DNA of 64,000 nt, from NCBI GenBank assembly GCA_024349765.1, contig AP026073.1, forward strand, positions 3,410,001 through 3,474,000, given 5' to 3'. Within the stretch, counting starts at the first letter, position 1, and every line of letters begins with the position of its first letter. Of this stretch, positions 37,896 through 54,292 are shown in pieces. The notes beneath the pieces were generated by a model that saw only the letters and a list, made by a program, of their open reading frames with translations, did not search any database and was not told the DNA's origin. The DNA is from Streptomyces nigrescens. Lineage in GTDB: Bacteria > Actinomycetota > Actinomycetes > Streptomycetales > Streptomycetaceae. The translations under genes and the position numbers were made by a program.

Positions 37896-39758
37896 ATGGG
37901 TATGCAACGACGCACCACCTCCCGGCGCCCCTCCGCCGGATACCGTACGTCCCTCCCGTGGCGGGTCGTCACCGGCATTGCCACCGCCGTCGACCGACGC
38001 ATCGGCTGGGACAAACTGCCCGTCCTGCCCGGCCTGTTGACGCTCTTCGGGCTGCGTGTCAAGCTCCGGCAGAAGAACCTGCACGACACCACCGGACTGC
38101 CGTTCGCCCATCGCCCCGACCCCGCACCACCGTCACCGAGCCAGCGGGTCAACCGCACCGCCGACGGCAGCCACAACGACCTCGGCGCGCCGCGCATGGG
38201 CATGGCGGGAAGCCGCTTCGGCCGCAACATCCCGCTGGACCGCATCGCGCCGACCACGCCCGAGTCGGTCCTGGCCCGGCCGAACCCCCGAGAGGTCAGC
38301 CGGGCCCTCCTCACCCGCCACGAGATGACCCCCGCCGACTCGGTCAACTCCCTGGTCACCGCCTGGCTCCAGTTCATGGTCCGCGACTGGTTCAGCCACG
38401 GCACGAGCCCCACGGAACGCCCCTGGGAAGTGCCGCTCGTGGACGACGACCCCTGGCCGGAACACCCGATGCGGATCATGCGGACACCGGACGACCCGAC
38501 CCGGGACCCCCAAGCCCCCGCCGGGACGCCCGACACCCGCGTCAATGTCAACTCCCACTGGTGGGACGCGTCGCAGATCTACGGGTCCAGCGCGGAGGAG
38601 CAACAGCGGCTGCGCACCGGCGAGTTGGGCAAACTGCACCTCTGGAACAACGGGAAGTCCCCGTCCTCCCTGGATCCGGCCACCGACCCGTCCCTCGTCC
38701 CGGGGTTCTGGCTGGGCCTGGCCATGATGCAGAACCTGTTCGCCCACGAGCACAACGCGATCTGCGACCATCTGCACGCCGCCTATCCGTCCTGGGGTGA
38801 CGAGGAGCTGTTCCAGCGTGCCCGGCTGGTCAACGCCGCGCTGCTCGCCAAGATCCACACCGTGGAGTGGACACCCGCCGTGATCAGCCACCCCACCACC
38901 GTCAAGGCGCTACGGGCGAACTGGTGGGGCCTGGCCGGCGAGCGGGTTCACGACCTCTTCGGCCGGATCAGCGGCAGCGAGGTGCTCAGCGGCATCCCCG
39001 GCGGCGAGACCGACCACTACGGCGTCCCGTACGCGCTCACCGAGGAGTTCGTGGCCGTCTACCGCATGCACCCCCTCGTCCGGGACGAATGGCATCTGCG
39101 CTCCGCCGCGGACGACGCCACACTGGGTGAACGGACCTTCCGGGAGATCGCCGGCCCGGAGGCGCTGAAGGTCCTCGAAACCGTGCCCATGGCCGATCTC
39201 CTCTACAGCTTCGGAACGCTCCATCCCGGTCTGGTGACCCTGCACAACTTCCCCAAGTTCCTGCAGGAATACGAGCGTCCCGACGGGCATCTGCAGGACC
39301 TGGCCGCCACCGACATCCTGCGCAGCCGGGAACTGGGCGTCCCCCGCTACAACGAATTCCGCCGGCTGCTGCGGTTGAAGCCCGCGGAGAGCTTCGAGGA
39401 GCTGACGGACAACCCGGCGTGGGCGAGGGAGATCAAGCAGGTCTACGGTGACGACATCGAAAAGGTCGACCTGACGGTCGGGATGTACGCGGAGAAGCTC
39501 CCCAAGGGGTTCGCCTTCAGCGACACGGCATTCCGCATCTTCATCCTGATGGCTTCCCGACGGCTGAACAGCGACCGCTTCTTCACCGAGTACTACACGC
39601 CCGAGGTGTACTCCAAGGCAGGTATGGCCTGGATCGACGACAACTCCATGGTCACCGTCCTCCTGCGTCACTACCCCGAGCTCCGCACCGCCCTCGCAGG
39701 TCTGCACAACGCATTCGTGCCCTGGCACACCGCCCAGGACAGCAAGAATCCCGCCTAG
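37896..39758 (+). CDS. Animal-heme-peroxidase / alpha-dioxygenase-family protein
   Basis: 620 aa from ATG 37896 with AAGGAG seven bases upstream. The cyclooxygenase/alpha-dioxygenase core is readable: NSLVTAWLQFMVRDWFSHG, NVNSHWWDASQIYGSS, LWNNGK, AHEHNAICDHL, IHTVEWTPA and EEFVAVYRMHPLV. The last carries the catalytic-type Tyr389 and proximal heme ligand His392 in the YxxH spacing. By motif alignment, the position of the distal heme His is Arg163 (MVRDW instead of MIHDW). Relatives oxygenate fatty acids with O2. Expected to bind heme; the altered distal residue makes peroxidase activity doubtful. No signal peptide. Confidence 0.82.
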   Translation: MGMQRRTTSRRPSAGYRTSLPWRVVTGIATAVDRRIGWDKLPVLPGLLTLFGLRVKLRQKNLHDTTGLPFAHRPDPAPPSPSQRVNRTADGSHNDLGAPRMGMAGSRFGRNIPLDRIAPTTPESVLARPNPREVSRALLTRHEMTPADSVNSLVTAWLQFMVRDWFSHGTSPTERPWEVPLVDDDPWPEHPMRIMRTPDDPTRDPQAPAGTPDTRVNVNSHWWDASQIYGSSAEEQQRLRTGELGKLHLWNNGKSPSSLDPATDPSLVPGFWLGLAMMQNLFAHEHNAICDHLHAAYPSWGDEELFQRARLVNAALLAKIHTVEWTPAVISHPTTVKALRANWWGLAGERVHDLFGRISGSEVLSGIPGGETDHYGVPYALTEEFVAVYRMHPLVRDEWHLRSAADDATLGERTFREIAGPEALKVLETVPMADLLYSFGTLHPGLVTLHNFPKFLQEYERPDGHLQDLAATDILRSRELGVPRYNEFRRLLRLKPAESFEELTDNPAWAREIKQVYGDDIEKVDLTVGMYAEKLPKGFAFSDTAFRIFILMASRRLNSDRFFTEYYTPEVYSKAGMAWIDDNSMVTVLLRHYPELRTALAGLHNAFVPWHTAQDSKNPA

Positions 39759-39858
39759 CGGCCCCGGCCCCTCGCCCCCGACAGCGTCCCGGCACTGTCA
39801 GACCCCGTCGATACGCTCATGGCTTCGCGTCCATCCGACCGGCACCCGCGGAGATTTC

Positions 39859-40431
39859 GTGAGCACCAGCGCCTATTCCCCCATACCGGAACTCAACCGT
39901 CTCAAGGAATTCGAGGAGCACGTCGAGGGCAAGTCCTTCTCCGACGGATTCGAGCTCTTCGCCTACGGCAGGGTTTCCGCCCTTGGGCCGAACCCACCCG
40001 CCGAAATGCGGGCCCGTCTCATTCCCTTCGCGCAGGCCACGCACTCCGGCTCCTTCTACGCCCTGTGGAAGTGCGACGACCGTACGGACCTCGCCGCACT
40101 GCCGGTGATCTTCTGCGGGGACGAGGGCGACCTGTTCATCGCCGCGCGCAGTCTGCGTGAGCTCTTTCGCCTGCTCGCCGTCGACGACGCCGATGACGCG
40201 GACGACGTGCCCGCCCGGGACGCCTATGTCCGCTGGCTCAAGCACACCTTCGACCTGACCCCTGCCGGGGATCCCGGCGCGGAATACGACGCAGCGCTCT
40301 CGGAGTACGGCCGTGCCTTCTGCGACTGGTGGCTGACCTTCGATGACGAGGACTCCATCATCTCCGACCTGCTGGAGGAGGTGGAGGACGTGGAGGGCGC
40401 CACGCCGCATGCAGGCGAGCAGGAGGGCTGA
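39859..40431 (+). CDS. Hypothetical protein, possibly SMI1/KNR4 (SUKH)-related
   Basis: 190 aa from GTG 39859 after GCGGAGATTTC. The sequence FELFAYGRVSALG, LIPFAQATHSGSFYALW, LPVIFCGDEGDLFIAARSLRELFRLLA resembles the SUKH fold found in immunity and housekeeping proteins, though I cannot confirm it. A repeated acidic loop (DDADDADD) and acidic C-terminus follow. No toxin gene is adjacent, so an immunity role is not supported. Confidence 0.6.
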   Translation: MSTSAYSPIPELNRLKEFEEHVEGKSFSDGFELFAYGRVSALGPNPPAEMRARLIPFAQATHSGSFYALWKCDDRTDLAALPVIFCGDEGDLFIAARSLRELFRLLAVDDADDADDVPARDAYVRWLKHTFDLTPAGDPGAEYDAALSEYGRAFCDWWLTFDDEDSIISDLLEEVEDVEGATPHAGEQEG

Positions 40432-40460
40432 AGCGGTCTGCGGAACGATCGGCGTGCCGC

Positions 40461-41180
40461 TCATGTCACCCAGCGCGGAGTGAACGCCACATGGAACTCC
40501 GCCTGATCGTGCCCAGGCAGGCCCTGCGAGGTGTAGAAGCTCCGGCAGGCGTGGTAGTTGCAGCCGGGCCCCGGAAGGTACAGCTCGGTCGCGGCAGCGG
40601 GCGGACCCTCCTTCGTCACGGCGAAGACATGTCGGGCCGATTCCCTGAACGCGCTCGTGGTGCCGGTCAGGAACAGCGTCTCGGCATGGAGGCACCGGCG
40701 GAGCGGGTCCCCGTTCCGCCGGCCGCCCGTGGCCGCGTGAGCGATCCTCCTGTCCGGCAGTACGTCCTGCTCCGGGACGCTCGCGGTCCGTAGCTCCCGC
40801 GGCGCATTCCCCGCGGTGATGCGCTCGCGCAGCCGCTTCCAGCGGGACGGCCGGAACTGCAACGACCGGTGGGCCAGCACGAGATCGAGCGGCTTCTCGT
40901 CCTGCCAGCCGGTTCCGGGCGCGCTCGGGGTGGTGCGCATCGGCAGATACACCAACGACCGCGGGGACCGCGCCGCGAGCAGCCACAGCGTTCCGATGCG
41001 CCGACCGTCCGTCCGGTCCACATACATCTCGTCCCGATGATTGGTTTCGTACAGCGCCCCGTTGTTCAGCGGCGCCGCCGGGCGGATCACCCGGAATTCC
41101 TCGCCGCCCAGCCGCACCCGCTGCACAGCGATCTTCACCCGCAGGTCGTGCCGCCCGATCGCGGCCCTCGACGCCGTCAC
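40461..41180 (-). CDS. Hypothetical protein
   Basis: About 239 aa from GTG 41180, preceded by AGGGGACGGCAGG; a TTG at 41219 is in frame but weak. It has a mixed strand/helix pattern (VKIAVQRVRLGGEEFRVIRP, RRIGTLWLLAARSPRSLVYLPM) and several cysteines near the end (CLHAETLF, GPGCNYHACRSFYTSQG). No family recognised. It is divergent from the repeat-rich membrane protein at 41367. Confidence 0.55.
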   Translation of the reverse strand: MTASRAAIGRHDLRVKIAVQRVRLGGEEFRVIRPAAPLNNGALYETNHRDEMYVDRTDGRRIGTLWLLAARSPRSLVYLPMRTTPSAPGTGWQDEKPLDLVLAHRSLQFRPSRWKRLRERITAGNAPRELRTASVPEQDVLPDRRIAHAATGGRRNGDPLRRCLHAETLFLTGTTSAFRESARHVFAVTKEGPPAAATELYLPGPGCNYHACRSFYTSQGLPGHDQAEFHVAFTPRWVT

Positions 41181-41366
41181 CCTGCCGTCCCCTGCCTCTC
41201 GTCTCGACCTCTCACGCAATTCTTCCGCGCTGCCACGGGGAAAGTCCCGGAACGGTACCTCCGGGGGCTATGGCTCCAGGCGGAGCGGGAAGACCATCGG
41301 ATCGTGCCATGACGTCTTCTCCGTACGGCAGTTGACAGCCGGAACCCGGCACGTCACAGTCCCGGC

Positions 41367-42833
41367 GTGAATGCGACCAACGATCTGACGCCGGCCGAGG
41401 AACGTATCCGGCGGGCCTTTCCGCGAGGCGAGTCCGTCGACTTCCGTGCCGCCGAGAACGAGGATCCGGCCCTCGGCGATGCCTGGGGCGCCGAGCGGAC
41501 CGTACGGGCGAGTGTGCTGCGGGCGCTGCTGCTCAAGGCGCCTCGGGAGGACGGGGAGATTGCCGCGCTCAAGATCACGGGGGCGCGGATCACCGGCGTA
41601 CTGGACCTGAAGTACGCCACGATCGACGCGGCGATCCGGTTGAGCCACTGCCACTTCGACGACGTTCCCGACCTGTACGGCGCCCAGCTGCGGCAGCTCA
41701 ATCTGAGTGCCTCCGTTCTGCCGGGCCTGACCTCGGCGACCTTGCGGGTCGAGGGGGTGCTGCGGATGACGGATTGCCGTATGCGGGGGCCGGTGCGGCT
41801 CGGCGGGGCGCAGATCTCCGGGGCGCTGTTCATGGAACGGGCGGAATTCACGGCGCCGGACGACTCCGAACCGGTGCTGCAGCTCAACCAGGCCTCGATC
41901 GGGGACGACTTGTGGGCGCCGGAGATCCGCGCACACGGACAGGTACGGCTCACCGGGGCCTCCGTCGCCGGGCGGATCAACGTGCAGGACGCGGAGTTCA
42001 CCACTTCCCATGGCACCGCGCTGGACGCGCAGAACCTCAATGTGGGAGGCCATGTACGGGCGCGGTGTATACGGGCGCAGGGCCGGGTCGAACTCCGCGG
42101 CTCCCGCATCTCGGGCCGTCTCGACCTGCTCCACGCCCACCTGTCGCATCCGGGCGACACGGCACTGCGGGCGAGCAGTTGTGTCATCGGCGAACTCTGG
42201 CTGCGCAGGGGCGATCGCATCGAGGGCGCCCTGAACTTGCGGCGTTCCCATATAGAGATCCTGACCCTTGAACCGGAGATGCTGCCGGACCAGGTGTTCC
42301 TCAGCAATCTCACGTACACCGTGCTCACCCCGCACGAGCCGGCCGAGCGCCGCCTGCCGATGCTGGAGCGGGACGGCGAGCCGTATGATCCGCACGGCTA
42401 CGAGCAGTTGCTGGCGGCCTACCGCCACGTCGGTGACGACGACGCGGCCCGGCTCGTCCAACTCGCCAAGCAGCGCCGCCGACGCACCACGCTCACCTGG
42501 TACGGACGGCTGTGGGGGTACGTCCAGGACGCCACCGTCGGCTACGGCTTCCGCCCGTTGCGGGCTGCGGTCTGGCTGCTGTCCCTCATGGCCATCGGAT
42601 CGATCGCGTACGGCCTGGACCATCCGCGCCCCGTCAAGGCGGACGAGGCCCCCGACTTCAATCCCGTCTTCTACACCCTCGACCTGCTCCTGCCGATCAT
42701 CAACTTCGGCCAGGAGTCGGCTTTCGCCCCTGCCGGCTGGCACCAGTGGCTGTCGTACGCCCTGATCATCACCGGATGGATCCTGGCGACGACGATCGTC
42801 GCGGGCGTGACCCGCACGGTCAGCCGCCAATGA
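41367..42833 (+). CDS. Membrane protein with pentapeptide-like solenoid
   Basis: 488 aa from GTG 41367. Residues 65-300 form quasi-repeats with regularly spaced A/L-x-x-x (ALKITGARITGVLDLKYATI, LRQLNLSASVLPGL, GPVRLGGAQISGALFMERAEF, GQVRLTGASVAGRINVQDAEF), a right-handed beta-helix pattern. Near the C-terminus two membrane helices (PLRAAVWLLSLMAIGSIAYGL and WLSYALIITGWILATTIVAGV) anchor it. Similar proteins are often annotated as membrane-associated oxidoreductases without evidence; I see no cofactor motif. Confidence 0.7.
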   Translation: MNATNDLTPAEERIRRAFPRGESVDFRAAENEDPALGDAWGAERTVRASVLRALLLKAPREDGEIAALKITGARITGVLDLKYATIDAAIRLSHCHFDDVPDLYGAQLRQLNLSASVLPGLTSATLRVEGVLRMTDCRMRGPVRLGGAQISGALFMERAEFTAPDDSEPVLQLNQASIGDDLWAPEIRAHGQVRLTGASVAGRINVQDAEFTTSHGTALDAQNLNVGGHVRARCIRAQGRVELRGSRISGRLDLLHAHLSHPGDTALRASSCVIGELWLRRGDRIEGALNLRRSHIEILTLEPEMLPDQVFLSNLTYTVLTPHEPAERRLPMLERDGEPYDPHGYEQLLAAYRHVGDDDAARLVQLAKQRRRRTTLTWYGRLWGYVQDATVGYGFRPLRAAVWLLSLMAIGSIAYGLDHPRPVKADEAPDFNPVFYTLDLLLPIINFGQESAFAPAGWHQWLSYALIITGWILATTIVAGVTRTVSRQ

Positions 42834-42885
42834 CCCTGCCCGTACGGGGAGTTGTCCCAGTGGACCGGCGCTTCCCGATCGTGGA

Positions 42886-43749
42886 TCAACCCACCGGTGA
42901 ACCTTCCTGAGCCCAGGCAGACAGCAGATGGAGGGCGGTCTCGGAGGGGGAGCCCTCCTCGACCGTGTGGGCGATCAGGGCCTGGTCCGGGTCGTCGGGG
43001 AGGCGCAGGGTTTCGAAGCCGAGGTCCAGCTTGCCGACCACGGGATGGAGGTAGGTGTACCGCCCGTGGGTCTTGTCCTTGAGCTCGTGTTCTGCCCAGG
43101 CCTCCCGGAACTCTGGGCTGGCGTCGCAGAGTTCGTCCAGCAGGTCCGCCGTGCGCGGGTCATCGGGGTGGCGTCCCGCATCGAGTCTGAGGTAGGCGGC
43201 CACATCGCCGGCCTTGCCGCGCCAGTCGGCGTACAGGCTGCGCATCCCCTCGTCCAGGAACACCAGGCGGGCCAGGTTCCGCTGCCGCGGTGGCAGGGCA
43301 CCGAAATCGGTGATCAGCGCTGCGGCAAGGCGGTTCCAGGCCAGGACATCGGTGTTCCGCCCGACGATGTAGGCCGGGACGTCGGCTGCCGAATCCAGCA
43401 GCCGGCGCAGCCCGGGCCGTACCTGCTGGGGCTGGGCGGCTGCTTCCGTGCGGTCCGATTCGGACCAGGGGCGTGCCAGCCGGTAGAGGTGCTCGCGCTC
43501 CACGGCGTCCAGGCGCAGGGCGCGGGCGACCGCGTCCAGGACCGCCTCGGAGAAGTGGAGGGTACGGCCCTGCTCCAGCCGGACGTAGTGGTCCACGCTC
43601 ACCCCGGCCAGCTGGGCCAGTTCCTCCCTGCGGAGCCCGGGGACCCGGCGACGGCCTCCGTAGTGCGGCAGCCCCAGGCTCTCCGGTCGCAGTCGGGCGC
43701 GGCGGGATCGCAGGAACTCACCCAGTTCTGCACGTCTGTCCAATGGCAT
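42886..43749 (-). CDS. XRE-family regulator, MmyB-like ligand domain
   Basis: 287 aa from ATG 43749. HTH: GELFLRSRRARLRP-type start (LGEFLRSRRARLRPE), RRVPGLRREELAQLAGVSVDHYVRLEQGR. The following MmyB/MLTR domain shows PAYIVGRNTDVLAWNRLAAAL, NLARLVFLDEGMRSLYADW and GKLDLGFETLRLPDDPDQAL. This family commonly controls an adjacent short-chain or aldo/keto reductase gene, as here, where the divergent neighbour at 43934 is an aldo/keto reductase. Confidence 0.92.
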   Translation of the reverse strand: MPLDRRAELGEFLRSRRARLRPESLGLPHYGGRRRVPGLRREELAQLAGVSVDHYVRLEQGRTLHFSEAVLDAVARALRLDAVEREHLYRLARPWSESDRTEAAAQPQQVRPGLRRLLDSAADVPAYIVGRNTDVLAWNRLAAALITDFGALPPRQRNLARLVFLDEGMRSLYADWRGKAGDVAAYLRLDAGRHPDDPRTADLLDELCDASPEFREAWAEHELKDKTHGRYTYLHPVVGKLDLGFETLRLPDDPDQALIAHTVEEGSPSETALHLLSAWAQEGSPVG

Positions 43750-43933
43750 GGGGCAAGTATCCCCGCCCCGCTCCCGCCCGCGGCCCCGCAAGCCTGGTCA
43801 TGCCGTGCCCAGGCACCGGCAGGCCCTGGGTGGGGCGTCCGCGGGCGACGACAGTGGTGGGCACCGGAAAGGTTCCGGTCCACCGGTTGCCCCGCGGCAC
43901 CTGGTGATCCGCTCTCACGGGGAGTTCTCCGAC

Positions 43934-44992
43934 ATGACAACCCACCACGACCTGCCGACCGTTCCCCTCGGCAGCACCGGCATGGACATCACCCGCCTCG
44001 GCTTCGGCTCGTGGGCGGTGGCGGGTTCCGGATGGCACTTCGGCTGGGGTGCCACCGACGATGCCGAGTCGATCGCCGCGATCCGCCACGCCGTCGATTC
44101 CGGTGTCAACTGGATCGACACCGCCGCCGTGTACGGACTCGGTCATGCCGAGGAACTGGTCGGCAAGGCCGTCGCCGGCCTGTCCGACGCCGAGCGCCCG
44201 TACGTCTTCACCAAGGTCGGGCTGGTCTGGGATCCGGCCGACCCGCACGCCGCACCCCGGCGGAGCATGAGGCCCGACAGTGTGCGCCGGGAGATCGAGG
44301 ACTCACTGCGGCGCCTCGGCGTCGAGCGCATCGACCTGTACCAGGTGCACTGGCCGGACACCGGCGCGTCCCTGGAGTACGCCGGTGACGGCAGCGGCGC
44401 CGTTTCGCCGAACGCCACTCCGCTGGAGGAGTACTGGCAGGTCATGGCCGACCTGAAGAAGGAGGGCAAGGTCCGAGCGATCGGACTGTCCAACCACTCG
44501 CCCGAGCAGCTTCAGGCCGCCGAGCAGATCGCCCCTGTCGACGTCATCCAGCCGCCGTTCTCGGCCATCAACCGCTCCGCCGCACCCGAGATCGCCTGGG
44601 CCCGCGCCCACGGCACCGGCGTGATCGTCTACTCCCCGCTCCAGTCCGGGCTGCTCACCGGCGCCTTCTCCGCCGAACGCGCCGCGAACCTGTCCGCCGA
44701 TGACTGGCGCTCTTCGCACCACGACTTCACCACGGGGCTGGCGGCCAACCTCCGTCTGGCCGATGCCCTGCGTCCCGTCGCCGAGCGGCACGGTGCCTCC
44801 GTTGCCGAGGTGGCCCTCGCCTGGGTACTGGCCTGGCCCGGTATCACCGGGGCCATTGTCGGTGCCCGCCAACCCGCCCAGGTCGACGGCTGGATCGGGG
44901 CGGGCGCCGTCCACCTGACCCCGGCCGACCTCGACGAGATCACCGCCGCGATCAGCCGCTCCGGTGCGGGAACCGGCCCCGCCCGCCCGTAA
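43934..44992 (+). CDS. Aldo/keto reductase
   Basis: 352 aa. The NADPH-dependent AKR barrel has the tetrad positions readable: NWIDTAAVYGLGHAEE (Asp, Tyr), YVFTKVGL (Lys), DLYQVHWPD (His). IGLSNHSPEQL and VIVYSPLQSGLLTG are also typical. It is divergent from the MmyB-like regulator and followed after 28 bases by a monooxygenase-domain gene, forming a likely two-gene operon controlled by that regulator. Substrate unknown. Confidence 0.92.
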   Translation: MTTHHDLPTVPLGSTGMDITRLGFGSWAVAGSGWHFGWGATDDAESIAAIRHAVDSGVNWIDTAAVYGLGHAEELVGKAVAGLSDAERPYVFTKVGLVWDPADPHAAPRRSMRPDSVRREIEDSLRRLGVERIDLYQVHWPDTGASLEYAGDGSGAVSPNATPLEEYWQVMADLKKEGKVRAIGLSNHSPEQLQAAEQIAPVDVIQPPFSAINRSAAPEIAWARAHGTGVIVYSPLQSGLLTGAFSAERAANLSADDWRSSHHDFTTGLAANLRLADALRPVAERHGASVAEVALAWVLAWPGITGAIVGARQPAQVDGWIGAGAVHLTPADLDEITAAISRSGAGTGPARP

Positions 44993-45020
44993 CCGTCCAC
45001 CTCATACCAGGAGACCCGTT

Positions 45021-45317
45021 ATGTCCCTCATCGTCGTCGCCGAGTGCCTGGCCGAACCCGGCCAGGAGGACCGCCTTCGCACCGCCTTGGAAGCAATGAT
45101 CGAACCCTCCCTGGAGGAACCCGGCTGCCTGGCCTACCGGCCCTACACCGACCTCAACCAGCCCGCCCGCATGGTGATCGTCGAGGAATGGACGGACCCT
45201 CAGGCCCTCGCCGAACACTTCACCACGCCCCACTTCCACCACGTCAAGCACGTGCTGGACCTGATCCTCGCCGAGCCGATGACGATCCGGAAGCTGACGG
45301 CCGCCGCTGTCGAATGA
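45021..45317 (+). CDS. Antibiotic biosynthesis monooxygenase (ABM)-domain protein
   Basis: 98 aa, a single ABM dimeric alpha-beta barrel: MSLIVVAECLAEPGQEDRL, LEEPGCLAYRPYTDLNQP, MVIVEEWTDPQALAEHFTTPHF. Some members oxidise quinone-forming polyketides without a cofactor; YgiN-type relatives act on quinols. ATG 45021 follows AGGAGA, 28 bases after the aldo/keto reductase, so co-expression is expected. Not evidence for antibiotic synthesis in itself. Confidence 0.85.
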   Translation: MSLIVVAECLAEPGQEDRLRTALEAMIEPSLEEPGCLAYRPYTDLNQPARMVIVEEWTDPQALAEHFTTPHFHHVKHVLDLILAEPMTIRKLTAAAVE

Positions 45318-45341
45318 CGCGCCGCCGGGCATGAGGCCCCT

Positions 45342-45923
45342 TCAGTCCTCCTCCTCGCCCTCCTCGCCCTCCTCGTCCTCCTCCTGATCCAGCTCCATCC
45401 GACGGAGCTCCTCATAGACAGCCGTGCCCGGCTTCGCCACGTACACCTCGAAGCCCGACCAGTCGAAGTCGTGGTTCTCGCGGAAGAACAGGTTGGCGAT
45501 GCTGTCGTTGATCTCGACGCCGGCCACATGGAGGGCCGGTATGCGGAAGGGCTTTTCACGCGGCCACGGCTCGTCGTCCTCCTCGTCCAGGTGGATGTCG
45601 ATGCCCAGCAGCGGGAGATCGTCGGAGGCGAAGGTCTCGGCATCGGCCAGATAGAGGTGGTCGTAAGGCAGGTCGTGCCCGGTGTAGGGAGCCGCAGCAA
45701 GCACCATGTCGGCGAGCAGGCCCCGGTACTTCTCCTTTCCGACCGGGTTGACGTACGAGGTCGCACGCTCGTAGGCGAAGGGGTCCTCCGAGCCTTCGTC
45801 GAAGGTGACGGGCGTCTCCAGGACCTGCACCAGGCGGTCCCAGCCGGCGGGGTCGGAGAAGTCGGTCCGGAGGACGGGAACGGCGTCCGTGCGGGGCAGC
45901 TTCGGCTTGTGCTCACGATTCAT
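45342..45923 (-). CDS. DUF6924-like hypothetical protein
   Basis: 193 aa from ATG 45923. The N-terminal LPRTDAVPVLRTDFSDPAGWDRLVQVL is the recognisable part of this uncharacterised actinobacterial family. The C-terminus is an extreme acidic run (Glu/Asp for the last 15 residues). No signal or membrane segment. Convergent with the monooxygenase gene. Confidence 0.65.
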   Translation of the reverse strand: MNREHKPKLPRTDAVPVLRTDFSDPAGWDRLVQVLETPVTFDEGSEDPFAYERATSYVNPVGKEKYRGLLADMVLAAAPYTGHDLPYDHLYLADAETFASDDLPLLGIDIHLDEEDDEPWPREKPFRIPALHVAGVEINDSIANLFFRENHDFDWSGFEVYVAKPGTAVYEELRRMELDQEEDEEGEEGEEED

Positions 45924-46024
45924 ACCCCGGACCGTAGCGCCGGGCACTGACAGTACGAGGGGCGCGCGACGGGGGCCCGCGCCGCAGAGTCGCCTGCGGT
46001 GTACCGGAGTTGTGCGCGGCAGCA

Positions 46025-46624
46025 CTACTCGTAGGGCCCGCCCCGAAAGAGGCTGCTCCCGCGCAGACGCGGCCGGTCGTCCCTGCGATGCGCGGCATCA
46101 GACCGCTCATCCGGTGCGGAGCGTTCGGCCAGTGCCCGCAATCTCCCCAGGTCGGCCAGGACTTCGGGGCGGTTGTCGGCCCGCTTCATCCACACGGGAA
46201 GCCTCGGGATCATCGCCATCGTCGGCGAAGCGCGGTGTTGCCGCAGCACGGCGCTGACGTACGCGGCCAGCTCATCGATGTGCTCCTCGTTGTAGGCCCA
46301 CAGGATGTGCCCGACGCAACGGGTCTGCAGCCAGAGCGGCCGCCGGAAGAACGGATCCTCGGTGCCGCCCAGCGCCGCCCCCACCAGGGCGGCGCCCTGC
46401 ACCTCGGCTTGCCATTCGTCGGTGGCCCCGCACGCCGCGCACACGAGACGGCGCGGCATGAACATCAGCTCACTGAAGAACCGAGGCGCCTCAAGGCCCG
46501 GCCTGGGCACGACGAGAGCACGGCCCCCGCACCGCGGGCACACCACAAGAATCCGGCCGGCGAACTGCGCCAGCCACCGCCCCCGGTCGAGGTGACGTAC
46601 CGGACCGCTCGACTCAGACTTCAT
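46025..46624 (-). CDS. Hypothetical protein with zinc-ribbon
   Basis: 199 aa from ATG 46624. One four-cysteine knuckle pair is present: VVCPRCGGRALVV near residue 30 and RRLVCAACGATDEW about 30 residues later, the spacing of a TFIIB-type zinc ribbon. The middle (GTEDPFFRRPLWLQTRCVGHILWAYNEEHIDELAAYVSAVLR) is strongly predicted helical. The C-terminus is Arg/Asp-rich. Function unknown. Confidence 0.65.
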   Translation of the reverse strand: MKSESSGPVRHLDRGRWLAQFAGRILVVCPRCGGRALVVPRPGLEAPRFFSELMFMPRRLVCAACGATDEWQAEVQGAALVGAALGGTEDPFFRRPLWLQTRCVGHILWAYNEEHIDELAAYVSAVLRQHRASPTMAMIPRLPVWMKRADNRPEVLADLGRLRALAERSAPDERSDAAHRRDDRPRLRGSSLFRGGPYE

Positions 46625-46940
46625 GGCGAGCACGATGGCACATGAGCAGCGCGGCCTGGGATTGCGGGCTTTCGCTGCGCGCTTGTGCCGCTGCATGCCA
46701 TGGCAAGCCCAAGCTTGCTTTGGTACGACTCCTGATCCGGGCTGCGTCGTACTGCTCGGCGCGGCAGAAGGCCCTGGGGACGCGGGGGCGGATCGTACGA
46801 TGCGGAAGCCGTACGCCAGTATCGTCCGCTCGGCTGGAGACAGTGAGGTTGTGGACGTGGAGCGCTACGGAGACCTTGAGTACCTGCGCTCTTCGAGGTG
46901 AGTACGAACCACGATGCCTGGGTGGCCCGGGCGGGACAGG
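46625..46940. other. Gene-free stretch
   Basis: Both strands have short open frames here but none with a good ribosome site or recognisable protein pattern. It holds an AT-richer stretch around CCCAAGCTTGCTTTGG (46709-46724) that may contain promoter elements for the divergent neighbours. I see nothing else in it. Confidence 0.5.
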
Positions 46941-47300
46941 ATGGCGGGCATGAACGCACCCGATCCGCATGTCCCTGAGGCGCCCGTGGCGGAGACCGAC
47001 CCGTTCGCGCCGTCCACGTCGGCACTCCGCGGGTTCGCCGCCCTCGGCCTCGTGCTGCTCGTCGTCGCCTACGGGGCGTTCATCATCATCGTCCTCCACC
47101 AGGCCTACAGCGGCGACGGGGCGAGCGGGCCCCTGCTGGATGTGGCCGAGTGGGCGATGGGCCTGTCCGCAATCGTGGGGCTGTCGGCGCTTTGCCTGCC
47201 CGGCGATGTCGTGAGCTACGCAGCGCGACGAGGAGCCGTACGGCTGCAGTACGCGCTGGCCTTCGCCGGTCCCGTGCTGGCGGCCGTCGACTTCGCCTAG
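46941..47300 (+). CDS. Small membrane protein, hypothetical
   Basis: About 119 aa from ATG 46941 (an ATG at 46950 is equally possible). Pro/Asp-rich N-terminus, then helices ALRGFAALGLVLLVVAYGAFIIIVL, AMGLSAIVGLSALCLPG and VRLQYALAFAGPVLAAVDF. Convergent with the ctaD paralogue, 23 bases apart. Family unknown. Confidence 0.6.
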   Translation: MAGMNAPDPHVPEAPVAETDPFAPSTSALRGFAALGLVLLVVAYGAFIIIVLHQAYSGDGASGPLLDVAEWAMGLSAIVGLSALCLPGDVVSYAARRGAVRLQYALAFAGPVLAAVDFA

Positions 47301-47323: not shown

Positions 47324-48817
47324 TCACCTCCTGGACGGGGCCGCGGCGGACCCGTCCGCGGTGGGATGGTGGAGGTCGAAGGCGGGCGATTCGCTGCGGA
47401 TCCGGGGCAGCGAGGTGAAGTTGTGGCGCGGGGGCGGGCAGGAGGTCGCCCATTCCAGGGAGCGGCCGTAGCCCCAGGGATCGTCGCAGCCGACCTCGGT
47501 GCCGTATTTGGCGGTCTTCCAGACGTTGTAGAGGAACGGGAGCAAGGAGAGACCGAGGAGGAAGGAGCCGATGGTGGAGAGGGTGTTGAGGGTGGTGAAG
47601 CCGTCGGCGGCGAGGTAGTCCGCGTACCGGCGGGGCATGCCGGCGGCGCCGAGCCAGTGCTGGACGAGGAAGGTGAGGTGGAAGCCGACGGTCAGGCCAC
47701 CGAAGACGAAGGTGACCAGGAATCCGGTGGCCCACAGCATCGGGGTTTCGAAGGACAGCGAGCCGCGCCACATGGTGCCGACCCAGTTGAAGAACTTCAC
47801 CCCGGTGGGGACGGCGATCAAGAAGGTCATGAAGGAGAAGAACGGCAGCAGGACGCCGCCGGTGACGTACATGTGGTGCGCCCAGACCGTCACCGAGAGG
47901 CCCGCGATCGAGATCGTCGCGGCGATCAGGCCGAGGTAGCCGAACATCGGCTTGCGGGCGAAGACCGGGATGACCTCGGAGACGATGCCGAAGAACGGCA
48001 GGGCGAGGACGTACACCTCGGGGTGGCCGAAGAACCAGAACAGGTGCTGCCACAACAGGGCGCCCCCGTTGGCCGCGTCGAAGACGTGGGAGCCGAACTT
48101 GCGGTCCATCTCCAGGGCGAACAGCGCGGCGGCGAGGACCGGGAAGACCATCAGGATCAGCACCGCGGTCAGCAGCACGTTCCAGGTGAAGATCGGCATC
48201 CGGAACATCGTCAGGCCGGGGGCGCGCATACAGACGATGGTGGTGATGAAGTTGACCGCGCCCAGGATCGAGCCGAATCCGGAGAGTGCCACTCCCATGA
48301 TCCACATGTCGGCGCCCACACCGGGGGAGTGGACGGCGTCGGACAGGGGCGCATAGGCGAACCAGCCGAAGTCCGCGGCGCCCTGCGGGGTGAGGAAGCC
48401 GGCCGCGGCGACCAGCGAGCCGAACAGGAACAGCCAGAAGGCGAGCATGTTCAGCCGAGGGAAGGCCACATCGGGGGCGCCGATCTGGAGCGGCATCAGC
48501 CAGTTGGCGAAGCCGGTGAACAGCGGCATGGCGAACAGCAGCAGCATCACCGAACCGTGCATGGTGAACGCCTGGTTGAACTGCTCGTTGGAGAGGATCT
48601 GGGTGCCGGGGCGGGCCAGTTCGGCACGCATCAGCAGGGCCATCAGACCGCCGACGAGGAAGAAGGCGAACGCCGAGACGAGGTAGAGCGTGCCGATCTG
48701 CTTGTGGTCGGTGGTCGTGAGCCACTGCACCACCTTGCGCCGGCGCGGCGGCCGGACCGTGACCCGGCGGCGCAGCGGTTCCCTGACCGCCGACGTCCGT
48801 ACTTCCCCATCATCCAC
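47324..48817 (-). CDS. Cytochrome c oxidase subunit I paralogue lacking helix X
   Basis: 497 aa from GTG 48817; streptomycete CtaD is normally about 560-580. Retained: heme a ligand His87 (FTMHGSVM), CuB ligands His265 with crosslink Tyr269 (GHPEVYV) and His314-His315 (WAHHMY). Between Thr376 and Val377 (about 47687-47692) the roughly 64 residues that normally hold the DxxFVVAHFHYV segment are absent, so GGLT runs straight into [12 protein letters not shown]. That removes helix X and both of its heme-ligand histidines while keeping the frame. The C-terminal [21 protein letters not shown] is intact. It has no ctaC or ctaE neighbour. Catalytic oxidase function is not expected; it may be a pseudogene. 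Confidence 0.9.
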
Positions 48818-49035
48818 GGTGCTGTGTCCTCCTCCATCGCGGAAACGCGAACCGCTTCGTCAGCCGGGTCGTCAGCTGGGCCCTCAGCCAGGCTGTGAAC
48901 CGGGCCTCGAACCGGGCCATGCATCGGGGCCGTGACCCGGGCGGGAACGGCCGGAGCCGGGAAGAGCCATGGACACGGGGGAGACCGGCCCTTCCCGGCG
49001 GACACATCGTCAGCCGGGACCCGTTGCGGCCTTCA

Positions 49036-49049
49036 GGGCCGAACGGCCC
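49036..49049. promoter_or_regulatory. DosR/DevR-like box A
   Basis: GGGCCGAACGGCCC (with A/T flanks, 49035-49050) has the GGGxC-N4-GxCCC layout of DosR boxes. It sits in the 387-base gap between the divergent ctaD paralogue and the DevS-type kinase, 155 bases before the kinase ATG. The rest of the gap (48880-48950) holds degenerate ACCGGGCC repeats and no gene. Confidence 0.7.
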
Positions 49050-49204
49050 TCCTTCGCACGGCAACCGGCCCTCGCAGGGGCGGGACGGTCGGCCCCTGTG
49101 CAGGCCCCTGCGGATGGCCGGACGGCATCGGTGCCCGCCGGTGCTCCGGCGCTGATCCCGTACGCTGCCGCACAGACGTACGGGATCTTTGGAGCAGCAC
49201 GGTC

Positions 49205-51028
49205 ATGTCCGAATCGCAGCAGTACGCACCGGTCGCCGGCGGTCCGCGCGGGCCGCAGCTCCACGAGCCGGACCGGATGCGCAGCCTGCTCGACGCCGTG
49301 ATGAGCCTGGGGCGGGGGCTCGAACTCCCACAGGTGCTCAGGGGCATCGTGGAGGCGGCGGTCACCCTCACCGACGCGGAATACGGGGCGCTCGGCGTCG
49401 TCGGGGACGGTCAGCTGTCGCAGTTCCTGCCCGTGGGGATGTCCGACGAGCTCATCGGGCTGATCGGCCGGACGCCGTGCGGCCGCGGCATCCTCGGGGA
49501 GCTGATCCGCAACCCGGCGCCGCTGCGGCTCACCGACCTGACCAGGCATCCGCACAGCTATGGCTTTCCGGCCAACCATCCGCCGATGAGGACCTTCCTC
49601 GGGGTGCCGGTCCGGGTCCGCGACGAGGTGTTCGGCAATCTCTACCTCACCGAGAAGCGGGGCGGCGGCGCGTTCGACGCGGACGACGAGGCCGTGTTGA
49701 CCACGCTGTCCACCGCGGCGGGAGTGGCGATCGACAACGCCCGCATGTACCACGAGAGCCGCCGCCGCGAACGGTGGCTCGAGGCGCTGGGTGAGATCAC
49801 CCGCAGTCTGCTGTCCGGCACCGATGCCGACGAGGTGCTGCGGCTGATCGCGGAGCGCGCGCAGGAGGTCGCGGGCGCGGACTGTGCGGCGGTCCTGCTC
49901 CCGGCCTCCGCGCCTGTGCCTGTGTCTGCGTCTGCGTCTGCGTCTGCGTCGTCCGTGTCCGTGTCCGTGCCCGCGTCCGCGGATCGGCTGACGGTGGCGG
50001 TGGCGTGCGGTACGGGCGCGAGCCGGATCCTCGGGCTGGCCGTGCCGGTTGACGGTTCCCTGCCCGGGATGGCCGTCCGCGGCGGCCGGCCGGTGGTCAG
50101 CGCCGACCTACGGTCCGACCCACGGGCGTATCCGCTCGGCCCCGACGCGGGTGGGAACGGGGCGGTGAAGCCGTCCGCGGAGAAGCCGTCCGCGGGGGAG
50201 GAGGTGAACGGCGACGCGCTGAGTGGGGACCGTGGAGAGGCCGACGGACCGACGGTCGCGGTTCCGCTGCAGGTGGACGCCGGCTGTGGTGCACTGCGGC
50301 TGAGCCGCCTGGCCGGGCGGCCCGCCTTCGACGACGCCGAGGTCACCCTGATATCGGGCTTCGCCGACCAGGCCGTGATCGCCCTGGAACTCGCCCGCCG
50401 ACGGGCCGAGTCCGAGGAGCTGACGGTCCTTCATGACCGTGACCGGATCGCCCGGGACCTGCACGACCTCGCCATTCAGCGACTGTTCGCCACCGGCATC
50501 ACCCTGCAGAGCGCGACCCGGCTGATCGACCGCCCGGAGGCCGCCGAACGGGTCGGCCGCGCGGTCAACGACCTGGACACCACCATCAAGATCATCCGCT
50601 CCACCATCTTCGGACTGCGCACCACCGGGGACGGCAAGGACGGCCGCGGTCTGCGCCGTGACGTGACCGAGGTCGTGCAACGGGCGGCCGGCCCGCTCGG
50701 CTTCACCCCGGCGCTTCGGATCGACGGCCCGGTGGACGCAGCGGTCCCGGAGAACCTGACCCCGCACCTCCTGGCAGTGACCGCCGAGGCCCTCAGCAAC
50801 GCCGCCCGGCACGCCGATGCCCACCACCTGGACGTGACGCTGTCGGTGACCGCGGACACGGTGACGCTGACGGTGGCGGACGACGGGACGGGTGTCGGGG
50901 ACGCACCACACACCGGAGGGCTGGCCAACATGCGGGCCCGCGCGGAGATGCACGGTGGTCGGCTCGCCGTCGAACGGCCGGAGGATGGTGGCACCCGCAT
51001 CGTCTGGCGGGTGCCGCTGTCCGACTGA
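49205..51028 (+). CDS. DevS/DosS-type GAF sensor histidine kinase
   Basis: About 607 aa, no membrane helix. The first GAF domain has the DevS-like run SYGFPANHPPMRTFLGVPVRVRDEVFGNLYLTEK; the His in NHPPM corresponds by motif to the heme-ligand region of mycobacterial DevS. The second GAF (VAGADCAAVLL ... VPLQVDAGCGALRLSRL) contains a low-complexity insert encoded by hexanucleotide repeats. The dimerisation box LHDRDRIARDLHDLAIQRLFATG has His420, and the HATPase part is EALSNAARHADA, DDGTGVGD, GGLANMRARAEMHGG. Likely senses O2, NO or redox state and phosphorylates the regulator encoded at 51113-51859. Confidence 0.92.
   Translation: MSESQQYAPVAGGPRGPQLHEPDRMRSLLDAVMSLGRGLELPQVLRGIVEAAVTLTDAEYGALGVVGDGQLSQFLPVGMSDELIGLIGRTPCGRGILGELIRNPAPLRLTDLTRHPHSYGFPANHPPMRTFLGVPVRVRDEVFGNLYLTEKRGGGAFDADDEAVLTTLSTAAGVAIDNARMYHESRRRERWLEALGEITRSLLSGTDADEVLRLIAERAQEVAGADCAAVLLPASAPVPVSASASASASSVSVSVPASADRLTVAVACGTGASRILGLAVPVDGSLPGMAVRGGRPVVSADLRSDPRAYPLGPDAGGNGAVKPSAEKPSAGEEVNGDALSGDRGEADGPTVAVPLQVDAGCGALRLSRLAGRPAFDDAEVTLISGFADQAVIALELARRRAESEELTVLHDRDRIARDLHDLAIQRLFATGITLQSATRLIDRPEAAERVGRAVNDLDTTIKIIRSTIFGLRTTGDGKDGRGLRRDVTEVVQRAAGPLGFTPALRIDGPVDAAVPENLTPHLLAVTAEALSNAARHADAHHLDVTLSVTADTVTLTVADDGTGVGDAPHTGGLANMRARAEMHGGRLAVERPEDGGTRIVWRVPLSD
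49913..49978 (+). repeat. In-frame hexanucleotide repeats within the DevS-type gene
   Basis: TCTGCG is repeated four times exactly at 49925-49948, flanked by TGTGCC/TCCGTG variants, encoding alternating Ser-Ala and Ser-Val. Units are multiples of three, so slippage changes linker length without a frameshift. Confidence 0.75.
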
Positions 51029-51112
51029 CCCGAACGGTTCCGGCGCCGGCCGCGGCCGGCGCGGGTGGCGGGCTCACCGTCCGACAGCGCCTCGGGGCTC
51101 CCGGTGCCGCGG

Positions 51113-51859
51113 TCACGGCCGTGGTCCCTTCAGTCGTTCGACGACCATCGCCGCCTGGACCCGGCGGCCCACCCCCAGCTTCGACAGGATCGCGGACACC
51201 CGGTTCTTGACCGTCTTCTCGGACAGGAACAGCCGGTCCGCGATCTGACGGTTCGTCAGCCCGAGGCCGATCAGGTCCAGCACCTCCCGTTCGCGCGGCG
51301 AGAGCCGGTCGAGTTCGGACGGCTCTGCCTCCGCTCCCGCGCCGGCCGACTGGCACCGGCCCGGGTCGCGCAGTCGCTCCATCACCCGCGTCGCGGTGCG
51401 CGGATCCAACATCGACTGCCCCGCCGCGACCGTACGGACCGCATGCACCAGCGCAGAGCCGTCGATCTGCTTGAGCACATAGCCGGCCGCCCCGGCCATG
51501 ATGGCGTCGAACAGCGCCTCGTCGTCATCGAAGGACGTCAGCATCAGACAGGCGAGATCCGGCACGCGAGCCCGTAATTCCCGGCAGACCACGATCCCTT
51601 CGTGGTCGCTGTCGGGCCCGTCGGTGCCGCCCAGCCGGACGTCGAGGACGGCGACCTGCGGCCGGACCGCCGGCACCCGGGCGAGGGCCTGCCGGGCGTC
51701 CCCCGCCTCCCCGACGACCACGATGTCCTCCTCCGCCTCCAACAGGTCCCGCACACCGCGGCGGACGACCTCGTGGTCGTCGAGGATGAAGACGCGCAGC
51801 GGCGTGTCCGGGGCGGCGGCGGGCGTGCCGGGGGCAGGGTGGACGGGCTGGTGGTTCAT
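51113..51859 (-). CDS. DevR/NarL-type response regulator
   Basis: 248 aa from ATG 51859. Receiver: RVFILDDHE, phospho-acceptor Asp73 in VAVLDVRLGG, TSFDDDEALF and YVLKQIDG. LuxR-type HTH: LSPREREVLDLIGLGLTNRQIADRLFLSEKTVKNRVSAILSKLGV. The C-terminal layout is like DevR/DosR. It is convergent with the kinase gene and divergent from the flavohemoglobin gene, and box B lies 85 bases before its start, so autoregulation and activation of the globin are expected. Confidence 0.93.
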   Translation of the reverse strand: MNHQPVHPAPGTPAAAPDTPLRVFILDDHEVVRRGVRDLLEAEEDIVVVGEAGDARQALARVPAVRPQVAVLDVRLGGTDGPDSDHEGIVVCRELRARVPDLACLMLTSFDDDEALFDAIMAGAAGYVLKQIDGSALVHAVRTVAAGQSMLDPRTATRVMERLRDPGRCQSAGAGAEAEPSELDRLSPREREVLDLIGLGLTNRQIADRLFLSEKTVKNRVSAILSKLGVGRRVQAAMVVERLKGPRP

Positions 51860-51943
51860 GGACTCTCGCTCTGTGGTTCTCGCGGATCGACGGGGCGCAA
51901 CGGTCCCGACCACGAGGTTCGTCGGGCCCGGCGGCCGGCGCAA

Positions 51944-51957
51944 GGGCCGAACGGCCC
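51944..51957. promoter_or_regulatory. DosR/DevR-like box B
   Basis: The same 14-mer as box A, GGGCCGAACGGCCC, 72 bases before the flavohemoglobin ATG and 85 before the devR-like start. A weaker related sequence, GGGCCCTTCGGGCA at 51968-51981, follows 24 bases later, as in tandem DosR sites. Confidence 0.7.
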
Positions 51958-52028
51958 TGGGGGAGCGGGGCCCTTCGGGCAGGGCAGCACGTTGCGATAC
52001 TGGCGCCCCCGTTCAGGAGGTCGATCCC

Positions 52029-53480
52029 ATGCCGCAGTCCTACCAGCCCGCGCGTCCCGCTCCGTCCGTGCGGTCCGGGCCGTCCGCACCGTCTGTGCCG
52101 TCCGTACTGCCTGTGCCGTCCGGGCGGTCCGTCGCGGGTACCGTCGGCGGCGAGTACCACGCCTTGCTCGCCCGGCACGACGCCATGCGGCTGCGGCGGC
52201 GCATCCTCGGTCAGGGCCGGGCACCCGCGCGGGAGTTAACGGCAGCCTCCTACGACGGCGCCGCGGACCAGCGGCTGATCACCCAGTACCTCGACCTGGT
52301 CACCCCCTTCGGCGACCTGATCGGCCGCCTCTACGACGAGATGTTCGCCCGGTGGCCCTACCTGCGGTCGCTGTTCCCCGCGTCCATGGACTTCCAGCGT
52401 GCGCATCTGGCCCGCGCCTTCTGGTACCTGATCGAGAACCTGCACCGCCCCGCCGAGGTGGCCGCCTACTTCCGGCAGCTCGGCCATGACCACCGGAAGC
52501 TCGGGGTGCGTCCCGCGCACTACGAGGCGTTCGAGGCCGCGTTGCGCGCGGCGCTCCGGCGCACCGCCGGGCCGCGCTGGGTCGAGGCGGTGGAAGAGGC
52601 ATGGGTGCGAATGGTGCGGTTCGCCGTCGCGTCGATGGTCGAAGGCGCCGACGCCGCGCTCGCCGAACCCCCGTGTTGGCAGGGCACGGTGACCGCCCAC
52701 GAGCGGCGCCGCCCGGACCTCGCGGTACTGCGGGTCCGGCTGCACGAGCCGTACCCGTACCGGGCCGGCCAGTTCGCGGCCGTCGAGTCCCCGCTGATGC
52801 CCCAGGCCTGGCGGCACTATTCCTTCGCGTCGGCGCCGGGGCCCGACGGCGAGGTGGCGTTCCACGTCCGGCGGACCGGCCCCGGCGGGGTCAGCGAGGC
52901 CCTGGTCAACGGCACCCGGGTCGGCGACCTCCTGCGGCTGGGCCCGCCGCACGGCACGATGACGCTCCAGGACGAGGACCGCACCCGCGATCTGCTGATG
53001 GTGGCGGGCGGCACGGGCTGGGCGCCGATCAAGGCACTGCTGGAGGAGTGGGCGGGCCGTCGCCGCGGAGCCGACGCACTTCCGCCGCGCCCGGCCGGCC
53101 GGGTCCACCTCTTCGTCGGCGCCCGCAGCCGCGCCGACCTGTACGACGCCGCGGCACTGGACCGGTTGGCGGCGTGCTACGACCGGCTGCGGGTGGTCCG
53201 GGTGTTGAACGAGGACATCGTCCCGGGAAGCGACGACCGCCAGGCGGAGCTCGGTGCACGCGAAAACGCCACGGGAAGCGACGACCTGTCGGCCGGATTC
53301 GGCCCGCTGGCCGAGGCGGTGGCGCGGGACGGGCAGTGGACGCCTCACCTGGCCTTCGTCAGCGGTCCGGCGGCCATGGTCGGCGCCACCGTCGCACGGC
53401 TGACCGCGGCCGGCTTGCAGGCCGACCGGATCCGCCACGACCCGGTGCCGGACCCACTGACCCCGCCGGCCGGTCGCTGA
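52029..53480 (+). CDS. Flavohemoglobin-like NO dioxygenase
   Basis: About 483 aa; ATG 52029 with AGGAGG eight bases upstream. A 70-residue Pro/Ser-rich N-terminal extension precedes the globin (DLVTPFGDLIGRLYDEMFARWPYLRSLFPASM), whose proximal heme ligand is His155 in LGHDHRKLGV. The FAD domain has QAWRHYSFASAPG; the NAD domain has DLLMVAGGTGWAPIKALLEEW and HLAFVSGP. Flavohemoglobins convert NO and O2 to nitrate using NADPH. The long N-terminal extension is unusual. Control by the adjacent DevS/DevR-type pair is likely. Confidence 0.88.
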   Translation: MPQSYQPARPAPSVRSGPSAPSVPSVLPVPSGRSVAGTVGGEYHALLARHDAMRLRRRILGQGRAPARELTAASYDGAADQRLITQYLDLVTPFGDLIGRLYDEMFARWPYLRSLFPASMDFQRAHLARAFWYLIENLHRPAEVAAYFRQLGHDHRKLGVRPAHYEAFEAALRAALRRTAGPRWVEAVEEAWVRMVRFAVASMVEGADAALAEPPCWQGTVTAHERRRPDLAVLRVRLHEPYPYRAGQFAAVESPLMPQAWRHYSFASAPGPDGEVAFHVRRTGPGGVSEALVNGTRVGDLLRLGPPHGTMTLQDEDRTRDLLMVAGGTGWAPIKALLEEWAGRRRGADALPPRPAGRVHLFVGARSRADLYDAAALDRLAACYDRLRVVRVLNEDIVPGSDDRQAELGARENATGSDDLSAGFGPLAEAVARDGQWTPHLAFVSGPAAMVGATVARLTAAGLQADRIRHDPVPDPLTPPAGR

Positions 53481-53610
53481 GCGGCGTACCCGGCAGGCGC
53501 GGAGGGCGGGGGCGCGGTAAGCGGAGGGGGCGGTGACTGGAGTGGCGGGATGACCGGAGCGGCGGGGTGACGCCCAGCGAGCCCGGAAACAGGCCGTGCG
53601 GTCCCGAGAC

Positions 53611-53624
53611 GGGCCGAACGGCCC
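53611..53624. promoter_or_regulatory. DosR/DevR-like box C
   Basis: Third exact copy of GGGCCGAACGGCCC, 120 bases before the GTG of the PNPOx-family gene. The intervening leader carries short CAGCAGCGTCAA-type repeats at 53685-53725. Confidence 0.7.
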
Positions 53625-53743
53625 TTGGCGGGCGGCTGCCGAGGGCCTTCTACTGGCCGGCAGCTCAGTGCGTGAGCAGGGTGCAGCAGCGTCAAGCAGA
53701 GTCCAGCAGTGCCCAGCAGCGTCAAAAGGAGAGGGAGCACGCC

Positions 53744-54292
53744 GTGAACGACATCCCGGCCCGGCACACCAGAGGGGCCGCCAGCGACTCCGGGGCCGCC
53801 ACCGACTCCGCCCGGACTGCCATTGCCACTGTCACTGCCGCCGACTCCGCGCTGGTGACCTGGGCGGATCGCGAGGCGTCCCGCCGCGGCACCGAATTGG
53901 ACCGTGCCGAGGCCCTCCGCCTGTTGGGCAGCGTTTCGCTGGGCCGGATCGTCTTCACCCAGGACGCCCTGCCGGCCATCCGCCCCGTCAACCACCTCCT
54001 CCACCACGGCCAGGTCATCATCCGCACCCACGAGGGCGCGGCGCTGACGAGCTTGACCCAACACGCGGATGCCGAGGGGGTGGTCGTCGCCTACGAGGCC
54101 GACGCCATCGACCCGGCCACCCACTGCGGCTGGAGCGTGGTGGTGACCGGCTACTGCCACCTGGTGACCGACCCCGACGACCTGGCGCACTACCAGGCAT
54201 TGCTGCATCCCTGGGCCGACCGGCGGATGTCCTACGCGCTACGCATCCGCCCGGACTTGGTCACGGGGTTGCGACTGTCTCCGAGGACGTGA
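53744..54292 (+). CDS. Pyridoxamine 5'-phosphate oxidase-family protein
   Basis: 182 aa from GTG 53744 after AGGAGAGGGAG. After a 45-residue Ala/Thr-rich N-terminus, the split-barrel flavin-binding domain reads ALRLLGSVSLGRIVFTQDALPAIRPVNHLLHHGQVIIRTHEGAAL and CGWSVVVTGYCHLVTDPDDL. In actinobacteria such proteins bind FMN or F420 and are frequent members of DosR-type regulons. A strong hairpin follows the stop. Its DosR-like box places it with the globin and kinase. Confidence 0.85.
   Translation: MNDIPARHTRGAASDSGAATDSARTAIATVTAADSALVTWADREASRRGTELDRAEALRLLGSVSLGRIVFTQDALPAIRPVNHLLHHGQVIIRTHEGAALTSLTQHADAEGVVVAYEADAIDPATHCGWSVVVTGYCHLVTDPDDLAHYQALLHPWADRRMSYALRIRPDLVTGLRLSPRT

Follow-up and report, generated by a model that had tools for sequence, protein, structure and literature searches.

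The window analysed here, a 64,000-nt stretch of the Streptomyces nigrescens genome (contig AP026073.1), carries a ctaD-like gene that is transcribed divergently from a histidine kinase gene within a block at 48817-54292 (Table 1). Among solved structures, the closest to the response regulator of this block is 3c3w, a DevR (E 1e-61) which we take to be that of Mycobacterium tuberculosis, and those related to the kinase are GAF domains of the DosT/DevS type (2vzw, presumably DosT itself; E 8e-50). The neighbours, which include kinase and regulator genes of DevS-like and DevR-like type and a gene for a flavohaemoglobin-like protein, are of the hypoxia/NO type that the original prediction had named.

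Table 1. Features of the ctaD block in the window and full-length CtaD copies elsewhere in the genome
Feature	Position	Strand	Remarks
ctaD-like gene for aa3 oxidase subunit I, 64 residues short	47324..48817	-	497 aa, GTG start
Deletion junction, CTGACCG remaining after 192-bp loss	47689..47695	-	edges of nearest relative compared
Shine-Dalgarno-like GGAGGAGGA	48827..48835	-	9 nt 5' of GTG; largely kept in L143 (alignment)
OsdR/DevR-type box AGGGCCGAACGGCCCT	49035..49050	.	218 bp from ctaD start; site model of PMC5069765 Table 1
OsdR/DevR-type box GGGGCCGACCGTCCCG	49081..49096	-	264 bp upstream of ctaD; 15/16 like S. coelicolor SCO0200 site; L143 counterpart
DevS/DosT/OsdK-like GAF-GAF histidine kinase	49205..51028	+	ORF from 48932; ATG 49205 likely
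DevR/OsdR-like response regulator	51113..51943	-	ORF; true start probably near 51859
Flavohaemoglobin-like protein	51498..53480	+	globin, FAD and NAD domains; ORF, true start downstream
OsdR/DevR-type box AGGGCCGAACGGCCCT	51943..51958	.	between regulator and flavohaemoglobin-like gene
Pyridoxamine 5'-phosphate oxidase-family protein	53567..54292	+	ORF; true start probably downstream of box
OsdR/DevR-type box CGGGCCGAACGGCCCT	53610..53625	.	site model scan
Four full-length CtaD copies	G000:C1:1310498, C1:1526731, C1:4200429, C2:407577		one on second contig

Homology places the ctaD product among the descendants of heme-copper oxidase subunit I (Pfam COX1, 410.9 bits against a cut-off of 34.8), and its reading frame, with a third-position G+C of 0.95, contains neither internal stops nor frameshifts. 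The 9.33-Mb, two-contig assembly encodes five CtaD proteins, the other four of which are full length, so that the gene was rightly described as a paralogue. When the window protein is aligned with these four, its sole large internal gap lies exactly between GGLT and VGFH, where 64 residues (192 bp) are absent with the reading frame kept; the segment between the same two edges is exactly 64 residues long in all ten relatives inspected there, in full agreement with the predicted in-frame loss of the HFHYV segment, and the Pfam COX1 match covers profile positions 1-324 and then 388-436.

In this family the HxH pair of helix X ligates hemes a3 and a, the HPEVY histidine and the HH pair are CuB ligands, and the histidine of helix II is a heme a ligand. 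The helix X motif is absent from the window protein, while H87 of helix II, HPEVY (265-269) and HHM (314-316) are all kept; H87, H265, H314 and H315 occupy invariant columns in an alignment of 42 sequences, as expected from the earlier claim that the rest of the protein is conserved. The protein is thus like actinobacterial aa3 CtaD (NF050116, PF00115; 6adq, 7rh5, 7q21) in its CuB ligands, HPEVY and helix II histidine, but it lacks the 64 residues and remains below the cut-off of NCBIfam cyt_aa3_Actin (NF050116; 846 against 880 bits), which the full-length relative L037 exceeds with 1001 bits, and below that of TIGR02891 (580 against 671 bits), which L037 also exceeds. Judged by these residues, the truncated product should bind no heme a3 and should not reduce oxygen, and it should be left with a single heme a ligand instead of two.

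The original prediction also held that the loss of one helix flips the topology of all that follows, a claim that the helix limits of a full-length model do not support. In the model of L037 (mean pLDDT 68), helix IX spans residues 358-381, helix X 392-423 and helix XI 429-455, and the lost residues, 377-440 in L037 numbering, run from the end of helix IX through the whole of helix X to the middle of helix XI, leaving a 34-residue hybrid IX/XI segment. In known CtaD, helices IX and XI both run from inside to outside, and a hybrid of two helices of the same direction would probably leave the later segments on their side of the membrane. On these models, which are of modest confidence, topology and crossing parity are most likely kept. 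The hybrid is hydrophobic in a hydropathy scan, which is weak evidence, as the threshold used failed to register three helices (X, XI and XII) of full-length L037. A model of the truncated protein (pLDDT 60, and below 50 at residues 335-382 and 387-395) breaks the hybrid into 357-372 and 377-391, and this low-confidence split makes a short hairpin in place of the hybrid helix conceivable.

The nearest relative of the gene in our sample, the ctaD of genome G199 (locus L143), is full length and 95% identical over residues 2-376, and it is found in the same block, with the kinase, regulator, flavohaemoglobin-like and pyridoxamine oxidase-like genes following ctaD in the same order. Within 18 kb round this relative's ctaD, no similarity to the window genes on the other side of ctaD was detected. 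None of the window ORFs tried in 38037-47300 matched this region, so the two blocks lie in different chromosomal surroundings.

A search for orthologues with the same deletion had been proposed together with the original prediction. The junction pattern occurs in one of 392 Streptomyces genomes, the window's own, and no ungapped match over residues 1-497 elsewhere was among the matches listed for the same genomes (up to three candidates scored in each). Relaxing the junction pattern to GGLTVGF with H or N as the next residue gave eight matches, one per genome in eight genomes, among 392 genomes round G199, a sample so nearly identical to the main one that this result adds little; the four matches inspected were unrelated proteins without HPEVY or HHM. 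Every one of the other 148 CtaD frames retains the H[FLYM]H[YFL] motif, as HFHY in 138 and as HLHY or HMHY in 10 (152 loci minus four views of the window gene, including the four paralogues of the same genome and some repeated loci). The deletion is apparently private to the window genome.

Predicted binding sites would connect the gene with the nearby regulator. With a site model built from the OsdR sites in Table 1 of PMC5069765, four sites of 14.4-21.8 bits (at 49035, 49081, 51943 and 53610) were found, all inside the block, against 0.15 expected per 64 kb from 20 first-order random sequences, none of which held more than one, the threshold of at least 14.4 bits having been chosen after the sites were known; the next-best site (13.4 bits, at 46069) is outside the block. 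Two of the four are located 218 and 264 bp upstream of the ctaD start, so that the DosR-like box predicted there exists in the form of Streptomyces OsdR-type sites. Mycobacterial-style DosR patterns had been tried and rejected, their counts being below those of shuffled sequences (118 against 185 expected, and 22 against 48); support for the boxes appeared on changing to the Streptomyces site set. A loose pattern allowing up to two mismatches was not enriched either (73 against 69 expected), and only exact or high-scoring DevR/OsdR-type sites are informative. The corresponding region of L143 contains four sites of 14.1-21.9 bits, and sites of at least 14 bits occur in the regions of five of nine further relatives and in none of the other four (L145, L147, L148, L149). 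About 80 bp of the ctaD-kinase intergenic region (about 48860-48943), which hold 12-nt-spaced repeats at 48860-48907, are missing from L143. Among 59 loci, mostly from Streptomyces and Kitasatospora (80 loci, of which 21 were left out), a site of the class of at least 14 bits is found up to 600 bp upstream of the ctaD match in seven, including L037 of G199, downstream in two and inside in none, and no such box precedes the three full-length paralogues of the window genome that were scored (best 3.0, 8.2 and 4.8 bits). The predicted DevR-type box is therefore a property of some of these ctaD genes and not of ctaD generally.

Taken together, we estimate at roughly 80% the probability that the window ctaD is a DevR-linked orphan copy recently inactivated by a single in-frame 192-bp deletion. 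This reading is supported by the four full-length paralogues, the full-length relative in the same block and the restriction of the junction to one of 392 genomes, as well as by the conservation of HxHY in all other CtaD frames, the near-identical motif at the two edges and the failure to reach the NCBIfam cut-offs. As four full-length CtaD remain, the gene would be dispensable. What counts against it is the lack of decay: the frame is open, the ribosome-binding site and the boxes are present, and few of the substitutions on its branch are nonsynonymous. In a nine-sequence set comprising 460 codons, the window gene and L143 differ by a dN of 0.016 and a dS of 0.149; polarised by outgroup majority (five of seven outgroups for residues, four of seven for codons), the window branch carries 6 nonsynonymous and 27 synonymous changes and that of L143 5 and 12, with the remainder of the 16 residues that differ overall unpolarised. 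For the window branch, three-taxon arithmetic on pairwise values with L144 yields an omega of about 0.09. A wholly neutral branch would be expected to carry 64-163 nonsynonymous changes under nine neutral mutation models, and the part of the branch that follows the deletion can be no more than 7-19% (95% bound) if the gene evolved neutrally from then on. Either the deletion is young, as inactivation requires, or the gene is still under constraint. The original prediction had left the choice between a recent pseudogene and a maintained non-catalytic paralogue; purifying selection on the branch fits both alike, and it is the private distribution that favours the former, making a spare copy recently broken the most likely state of the gene.

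A maintained heme-less subunit I, which would fold with the common CtaC and CtaE and act as a DevR-controlled brake, a scaffold or a competitor in aa3 assembly, is in our view unlikely. The open frame, the conserved start signals, the strong DevR-type boxes and the low omega would all suit it, and for its five CtaD the whole genome contains a single COX2 match and a single COX3 match, which any extra CtaD copies in use would have to share. The truncated model also matches mycobacterial CtaD (TM-score 0.73, rmsd 7 A), a match to be expected as the model was built from an alignment of full-length relatives. Against maintenance stand the absence of the junction from every other genome of the sample and the poor quality of the truncated model, and the low omega would be inherited if the deletion is young. 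Still more speculative, and very improbable, is a dominant-negative brake, in which the DevR-induced heme-less CtaD, its topology kept by the hybrid helix, takes the catalytic subunit's place in the single CtaC/CtaE complex and thereby shuts down respiration through aa3 at low oxygen or in the presence of NO.

The sequence round the junction, at position 47690/47689 with an ambiguity within CTGACCG (47695-47689), offers a route for the deletion. In the nearest relative the edges read CTGACCG and CTCACCG, 192 bp apart and matching at six of seven positions (CT-ACCG); CTGACCG is found at the left edge in eight of ten relatives, and the right edge is CTCACCG in six of ten and CTGACCG in one. Both edges code for Leu-Thr in the same codon phase, and when the window gene is compared with L143, the breakpoint placements with the fewest mismatches (5 in 160 nt) fall in and just beyond this motif. 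Short-homology joining at CT[G/C]ACCG is the likely route, though the motif is short and could be due to chance; since it stands in the same codon phase at both edges, one such deletion can explain both the exactness of the loss and the preserved frame. An orphan, DevR/OsdR-linked subunit I copy, full length until recently, would thus have lost 192 bp in one event, probably by slippage or short-homology joining, and with them all of helix X, including its two heme-ligating histidines, together with the adjoining parts of helix IX (its end) and helix XI (its first half), while its frame survived. That the real gene is full length and the gap an error of sequencing or assembly is quite improbable. 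An error might be suspected because no other genome of the sample has the deletion and because four similar paralogues are present in this genome, but the assembly consists of two contigs only and the loss is exactly in frame. In addition, L143 contains no direct repeat of at least 8 nt with 192-bp spacing round the edges on which a repeat collapse could have acted; the longest exact word common to its two edges is 8 nt, at an offset other than 192 bp. That the protein still works as an oxidase of modified design, with other residues as heme ligands, is hardly credible despite the retained CuB ligands and helix II histidine, as no replacement helix is present, the six polarised changes avoid H87, H265, H314 and H315, and H380 beside the junction, which differs from L143, is no new ligand, being common to the genome's own paralogues and several full-length relatives.

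Among the titles and abstract openings listed by a literature search, in which subscription journals were thinly covered, none dealt with a CtaD lacking helix X. In its DevR-like regulator, DevS/DosT-like GAF kinase and boxes the locus is like OsdKR of Streptomyces coelicolor and the mycobacterial DevRS (DosRS), from which it differs in that an orphan ctaD is transcribed away from the kinase gene. In the OsdR paper (PMC5069765), the word 'cytochrome' is absent from the main text and Table 1 names no ctaD. In S. coelicolor a comparable case is the orphan QcrB3, a paralogue of one bcc-aa3 subunit; it too is a surplus subunit of this supercomplex whose gene lies elsewhere in the genome. It is a cytochrome b and not subunit I, however, and the passages on it in PMC7931247 mention no deletion. 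SCO7021, a secreted protein with a predicted OsdR site according to Table 1 of PMC5069765, appears in PMC7931247 as the cytochrome b paralogue QcrB2, and spare respiratory subunits may therefore be a wider part of the OsdR regulon.

If the window ctaD is a young null allele, its inactivation represents the ordinary loss of a redundant paralogue; a maintained gene would instead encode an oxidase subunit that is catalytically dead and serves as a regulator. The association of a DevR/OsdR-type locus with an orphan subunit I in the window and its nearest relative, together with the boxes before some other ctaD genes, suggests an exchange of subunit I at low oxygen.
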